From the NCBI GenBank assembly GCA_030669345.1, contig DAOVDX010000003.1, forward strand, positions 1 to 39,586: a DNA stretch of 39,586 bases, read 5' to 3'. This document shows, piece by piece, positions 1,686 to 1,885 of this stretch; position 1 is the stretch's first letter; each line of letters begins with the position of its first letter. Made by a program: the position numbers and the translations under genes. The notes under the pieces are model-generated. The model did no database searches. It was not told the DNA's origin and saw only the letters and a list, made by a program, of their open reading frames with translations. Source of the DNA: Methyloceanibacter sp. Lineage in GTDB: Bacteria > Pseudomonadota > Alphaproteobacteria > Rhizobiales > Methyloligellaceae.

Positions 1686-1699
1686 TTGATCCAGATCAA
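1686..1699. promoter_or_regulatory. FNR/FixK-type box TTGATCCAGATCAA
   Basis: Exact TTGAT-N4-ATCAA palindrome in the regulator/ompW intergenic region. Confidence 0.8.
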
Positions 1700-1746
1700 T
1701 GTTTTCGTTGCATGCCCGCAACAGTCGCAAATTGTTACGTACACAA

Positions 1747-1760
1747 CTGATTTCGATCAG
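1747..1760. promoter_or_regulatory. FNR-like box CTGATTTCGATCAG
   Basis: Palindrome CTGAT-N4-ATCAG, one symmetric change from consensus; centre about 42 bp upstream of the start predicted from a TACACT -10-like hexamer at 1784-1789. Confidence 0.6.
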
Positions 1761-1885
1761 GAATTTCAGTCCATCGGCACTGGTACACTCGCCCAGATCG
1801 TCTCAGGTTTAAGACAGCAAAGCCTGTCTCATATTTTAGGGAACAAGAACGAGGTCGATTGTCGCGGCCGCTGGGGGACTTCAAA

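Follow-up and report, generated by a model that had tools for sequence, protein, structure and literature searches.

The 403-bp intergenic region that separates a Crp/Fnr-family regulator gene from a divergent ompW gene (1483-1885, between the regulator start and the ompW start) contains conserved Crp/Fnr-type palindromes of two different kinds, and we give somewhat better than an even chance to the reading that it is a two-input control region for ompW. In the mechanism that we propose, a FixK/FNR-type regulator that presumably acts when oxygen is low, for which P0003 is the candidate, would bind TTGAY...RTCAA at boxes B and A. The local regulator would have an operator of its own at about -42, box C (CTGAY...RTCAG), from which it would activate ompW as a class II activator. 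FixK would both raise the local regulator and prime ompW, giving a coherent feed-forward loop in which the main promoter-proximal contact at ompW would be supplied by the local regulator.

The window, by which we mean the whole 39,586-nucleotide stretch that was analysed, belongs to an assembly of 1.916 Mb that is 84.6% complete. The comparison covered 89 ompW promoters; whole-genome searches of the order supplied 84 of them, and named assemblies the other five. One genome was taken per species, the order is sampled unevenly, and the start codons of the relatives are predicted ones. The features of the region are collected in Table 1.

Table 1. Features of the regulator-ompW region, in window coordinates.
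Feature	Position	Strand	Place	Description
Local Crp/Fnr-family regulator, P0001	703-1482	minus	divergent from ompW	259 aa
Box A, TTGATATTGATCAA	1546-1559		in front of the regulator gene, about 70 bp from its start codon	exact consensus; presumed FixK/FNR-type site
Direct repeat, older half and its counterpart	1636-1675 versus 1712-1751		offset 76 bp	30/40 identity (75%)
Box B, TTGATCCAGATCAA	1686-1699		distal site	exact consensus; presumed FixK/FNR-type site
Dyad M, GTTGCATGCCCGCAAC	1707-1722		between boxes B and C	third conserved palindrome; family consensus GTGNC-N6-GNCAC
Box C, CTGATTTCGATCAG	1747-1760		proximal site	CTGAYN4RTCAG; proposed operator of the local regulator, at a putative class II position
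CTGG, conserved CTNG element	1780-1783	plus	26.5-29.5 bp downstream of the box C centre	
TACACT	1784-1789	plus		-10 of the original prediction; not conserved
ompW, P0002	1886-2605	plus	ATG at 1886	239 aa; OmpW/AlkL/OprG family porin; Pfam OmpW

The original prediction spoke of an ompW-like gene, and Pfam confirmed that P0002 belongs to the OmpW family (PF03922, positions 1-195 of 195, E=3.1e-52); its solved relatives are AlkL, OprG and OmpW. In two related genomes the ompW gene is found without its N-terminal part (L011 in G002, 2277-2821, and L072 in G011). The product of the divergent gene, P0001, is a member of the Crp/Fnr superfamily, with HTH_Crp_2 (PF13545, E=1.5e-12) and cNMP_binding (PF00027, E=1.6e-8) domains that both score above the Pfam cut-off. 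We looked in P0001 for an N-terminal cysteine cluster of the FNR type, such as those recognised in FNR-type relatives (e.g. L188 and L189), and this cluster is absent, the first cysteine not coming before residue 157. Against the NCBIfam FixK equivalog the protein scored 83 bits, below the cut-off of 300. Its closest solved relative is FixK2 (PDB 4i2o, E=5.8e-14), but it has Gly at the position of the FixK2 redox Cys183 and Ala-Asp in place of Leu195-Glu196.

The recognition helix reads NADMLSR in P0001 and NADTLSR or NPDTLSR in its orthologues. The clade members that were read have the form N[APR]DTxSR, as against L/I/V-E-T-x-SR in FNR and FixK. Glu209 and Arg213 of FNR are conserved recognition-helix residues of the FNR/FixK/DNR class (PMC2908626), and in FNR and FixK the Glu is invariant and contacts DNA. 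All clade members examined have Asp at the FNR Glu209 position (Asp201 in P0001), while Ser204 and Arg205 are invariant, and with Asp for Glu the local regulator falls outside the FNR/FixK/DNR class as defined by Glu and Arg in the helix. A maximum-likelihood tree divides the Asp-type from the Glu-type proteins by a branch with 100/99 support. FixK2 Leu195, which corresponds to the Ala/Pro position of the clade, touches a thymine of its site according to a secondary citation (PMC9104804), and this thymine would probably be the first T of TTGA.

Named relatives of P0001 come from species of Methyloceanibacter, Methyloligella and Hyphomicrobium and from related assemblies. A literature search on this regulator in Hyphomicrobium or Methyloceanibacter returned nothing relevant. 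In Methyloceanibacter superfactus (L014/L043) and M. methanicus (L022/L051) the regulator gene is split over two reading frames, and fixK is likewise split in M. superfactus (G012:C25); the split genes of these named strains are either pseudogenes or the product of sequencing errors.

Palindromes had been claimed at centres 1692.5 and 1753.5, and both are present, as boxes B and C. They are FNR-class boxes upstream of ompW as predicted, but they are not of one kind, the distal one being TTGA...TCAA and the proximal one CTGA...TCAG: boxes A and B agree with TTGAY-N4-RTCAA, whereas box C departs from it at C1 and G14. The pattern YTGAYN4RTCAR occurs three times in the window against 0.53 expected from shuffled sequences, and all three sites lie within 215 bp. 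The exact form TTGATN4ATCAA has only four sites in the whole assembly, two of which are boxes A and B. A search that tolerated two mismatches to TTGATN4ATCAA gave 11 sites where 9.9 were expected; box C taken alone would be at this chance level, and its significance comes from its conservation. A TTGAY box near the regulator, equivalent to box A, was found in most relatives although not in all, and since box A is of the TTGA type there is no sign of autoregulation of the regulator through CTGA. Another of the four exact TTGATN4ATCAA sites is at L004 (G000:C133:2238-2251), upstream of an ORF read as a CBS-domain gene; this gene is plausibly controlled by FixK as well.

The divergent regulator-ompW pair is kept across the genus, in Methyloligella halotolerans and in Hyphomicrobiaceae, and the promoter arrangement is conserved over two families, Methyloligellaceae and Hyphomicrobiaceae. 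Alignment of the same intergenic region in relatives, as proposed with the original prediction, showed both boxes conserved in 20-odd species. Among relatives that have the local regulator, box B reads TTGAYN4RTCAA almost without exception, and the centres of B and C are mostly 60-63 bp apart. A proximal CTGAYN4RTCAG, at -90 to -150 relative to the ompW start codon, was found in 25 of the 29 ompW promoters that adjoin the regulator clade, whereas among the 60 ompW promoters without a clade regulator the proximal CTGA occurred in none and a TTGA-type box in 33. The four regulator-linked promoters without the proximal CTGA are those of L011, where ompW is truncated and box C has one mismatch (CTGATTTCGAGCAG) with boxes A and B intact; L072, where the promoter is deleted; L128, which has kept its clade regulator and has degenerate boxes; and L055, a distant member of the clade. 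When the 25 promoters were aligned on box C, CTGA and TCAG (eight positions, including C1 and G14) were invariant and the flanks varied. Because this set had been chosen by the CTGA pattern, the weight of the comparison lies in how many promoters have the pattern and not in its invariance.

L178 has a divergent Glu-type regulator (helix LGLQPETLSR) beside the promoter, and its box is TTGA, not CTGA. Against the association, the CTGA box is absent from the distant clade members L053, L055 and L120, and L024 has a TTGA box upstream. In L050, from a Hyphomonadaceae MAG, regulator and ompW run in the same direction and both upstream boxes are of the CTGA type, 60 bp apart. A genome-wide scan with CTGAYN4RTCAG for a regulon gave 11-27 sites per genome, which is too frequent to be informative, and a wider regulon is for this reason not readable from the sites.

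As far as the sequences tell, the losses of the boxes dissociate, each box going with its regulator. A FixK/FNR-type protein is present in every checked genome having box B and an intact box C. In Methyloligella halotolerans (G023) and in one of the Hyphomicrobiaceae (G308) there is no such protein, and only box C is found, box B having been lost. Another of the Hyphomicrobiaceae (G261, listed as 99% complete) has no clade regulator anywhere in its genome, and its ompW promoter has kept the distal TTGA box and dyad M and lost box C. Both regulators are missing from G018, and so are the boxes. The exception is L052 (G408), in which FixK-like proteins are present and box B is absent, and in draft genomes the absence of a regulator can be an assembly gap. 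A cysteine-bearing FNR was sought in the 84.6%-complete assembly of the window and none was found; the only candidate found there is the FixK-like P0003, with the helix LTLETVSR. The reader of box B is likely a FixK-type protein. The original prediction had proposed an oxygen-controlled porin circuit with a local regulator, and of this the conserved, adjoining Crp/Fnr regulator stands, while the boxes are better described as following two different regulators.

These losses bear on another reading, in which one FixK/FNR-type protein would read both B and C, with C as a weaker site (T1 changed to C1) that gives a graded response like that of the E. coli ompW promoter with its two sites, and the local regulator would act elsewhere. 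CTGA half-sites can be tolerated by such proteins, Rhodobacter sphaeroides FnrL being listed at CTGATgcagATCAA (PMC2908626), and E. coli FNR uses two ompW sites with different effects (PMC4886647). We nevertheless consider a single reader unlikely, because box C persists in the two genomes without FixK-like proteins and is lost in G261, where only the local regulator is missing. Moreover, the 33 promoters with an upstream box and no local regulator have TTGA and never CTGA, and the drift of a weak site would not maintain C1 and G14 in 25 sequences.

Dyad M, between boxes B and C, is centred 39 bp upstream of the box C centre in most of the 25 aligned promoters, and its best columns have an information content of 1.1-1.8 bits. 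Several Rhizobiales ompW promoters that lack the regulator have similar dyads, whose distances from the FNR-type box (about -38/-39, -49 and -60) step by about one helical turn. We compared the dyad by eye with the consensus sequences of three kinds of regulator and accepted none of them. The CRP consensus is TGTGA-N6-TCACA, from which the dyad differs by 2 bp in the distance between half-sites; the PpsR/CrtJ consensus, TGT-N12-ACA, fits only some genomes and not the window; and a RegA/RegR-type box is offset by one base.

The predicted class I/class II spacing is supported in part: box C is conserved at what would be a class II position, and box B, 60-63 bp further upstream, is kept; the transcription start at 1796 from which this spacing was counted is a putative one. 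TACACT is indeed found where it had been proposed as the -10, but aligned relatives read, for example, CGTGTC, TGCGTG or TAGGGG, and a sigma-70 promoter scan of the intergenic region called no promoter. The adjacent CTNG is conserved (C in 23, T in 24 and G in 22 of the 25 promoters) and is possibly part of the core promoter; the signal was looked for in ompW promoters without the regulator and none was found. Since CTNG is conserved and TACACT is not, a start at exactly 1796 is no more than a candidate. In the regulator-linked promoters no standard -10 is conserved, and it is the position and spacing of box C that are fixed. Promoters without the regulator have an A at +30.5 from the TTGA box in 24 of 33 cases, as a class II -10 would give. 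This A at -11, the mark of promoters without the regulator, is missing from the regulator-linked core promoters, and for this reason it is with some reserve that we infer the activator role and the exact ompW start.

Divergent regulator-target pairs are frequently repressor-operator pairs, and the local regulator on box C might repress ompW by covering the -35 region, with induction by FixK at box B or by release of the repressor. Box C does overlap the expected -35 region, there is no standard -10 downstream of it, and one of the E. coli FNR sites represses ompW. However, box C and the TTGA box of regulator-free promoters are about equally far from the start codon, the frequent A at +30.5 in the regulator-free promoters fits a class II activator, and in the genomes that lack FixK and keep box C alone, this box would be the sole remaining input of the pair. 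We consider repression quite unlikely, and activation by the local regulator remains the reading that we prefer.

The region also contains a direct repeat, whose identity at an offset of 76 bp is the best of all offsets, shuffled sequences reaching at most 25/40. The older half is also found in the sister species L011. The distance from A to B is 140 bp in the window and in the sister species versus 65-85 bp in most other Methyloceanibacter relatives. The repeat points to a tandem duplication of the B-to-C module in which one copy has decayed, and this decayed duplicate at 1636-1675 would account for the wider gap between boxes A and B here.

Regulator clade and CTGA promoters share a single origin, and their association therefore represents one or a few evolutionary events kept in many species, not independent ones. 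On this ground the CTGA form could be taken as no more than ompW ancestry inherited in two families and functionally unconnected with the adjoining regulator. That is very improbable, since CTGA was lost together with the regulator inside the same family (G261), and across both families the eight positions do not vary although the flanks do. Furthermore, a clade member in L121 is divergent from an OMP_b-brl/OmpA-like gene that is preceded at 76 bp by CTGACCCGCGTCAG, and a TTGA box is found close to the start of the regulator; the presence of a CTGA box before an outer-membrane gene other than ompW argues that CTGA is not merely ompW ancestry. Finally, it is barely credible that box C acts in the RNA, as a conserved hairpin of the 5' leader (CTGAY loop RTCAG), and not as protein-binding DNA. 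CTGAC-N4-GTCAG can make a 5-bp stem with a 4-base loop and sequence conservation does extend downstream of box C, but some copies break the stem (e.g. CTGACCTTAATCAG, where the fifth pair is C-A). The element also matches the 14-bp Crp/Fnr format exactly and keeps a fixed spacing to B and M, and where the regulator is absent the element is absent or is TTGA instead.

A wider proposal, to which we give a little less than an even chance, is that the N[AP]DTxSR regulators are an undescribed Crp/Fnr subfamily with its own CTGAY-N4-RTCAG operator. The change of Leu/Ile-Glu to Ala/Pro-Asp in the helix would go with this operator, and the subfamily would be dedicated to outer-membrane beta-barrel genes, whose promoters it would share with FixK/FNR and, at the GTGNC-N6-GNCAC dyad, with a third factor. 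Many bacteria have FNR, FixK and DNR paralogues side by side that recognise nearly the same box, and how they are kept separate is a practical question. Here, two regulator lineages apparently have two distinguishable boxes in one promoter together with a matching change in the residues that read DNA and with natural losses of each regulator and its box, so that a few point mutations in the regulator and the exchange of a single base pair in each half-site would be enough to test the change in specificity. The ompW circuit is conserved in methylotrophic Hyphomicrobiales, and the literature searched holds no prior description of it.

That ompW is an alphaproteobacterial FNR target is already known; what is new is a second, apparently paralogue-specific operator. 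In E. coli, FNR acts on ompW from sites at -81.5 (activating) and -126.5 (repressing) (PMC4886647), and Dufour et al. 2010 (PMC2908626) place ompW in the core FNR regulon of Alphaproteobacteria. The likeness to FNR/FnrL control of ompW lies in the low-oxygen target and in the one or two TTGAT-N4-ATCAA-type boxes upstream, of which E. coli has two. In E. coli FNR occupies both, whereas here the proximal half-site is different (CTGA...TCAG) and is tied to a second, adjoining regulator. Boxes A and B match the FixK box of FixK2 in Bradyrhizobium and of FixK/FnrN in Rhizobiales, for which published analyses could not separate the FixK and FnrN sites (PMC4999443); the local regulator differs from FixK2 at Leu195-Glu196 and Cys183, as described above, and forms a separate clade.

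The closest parallels are found where two paralogues meet at one promoter. In Herbaspirillum seropedicae, Fnr3 has a relaxed preference at site positions 1 and 14, and Fnr1 needs A at 14 (PMC5934665). There, as here, paralogues are told apart partly by positions 1 and 14 of a 14-bp site, with co-regulation at the class II position. However, the H. seropedicae paralogues share or exchange one hybrid site, whereas the ompW promoter described here has two separate palindromes, and Fnr1 and Fnr3 are both Fe-S FNRs while our local regulator is without the Fe-S cysteines. FnrL and CrpK of R. sphaeroides (PMC4263372) are likewise an FNR-type protein and a Crp/Fnr relative with overlapping targets, but their motifs are nearly the same and their sites are shared, whereas in the ompW promoters of this clade the half-sites are cleanly different.
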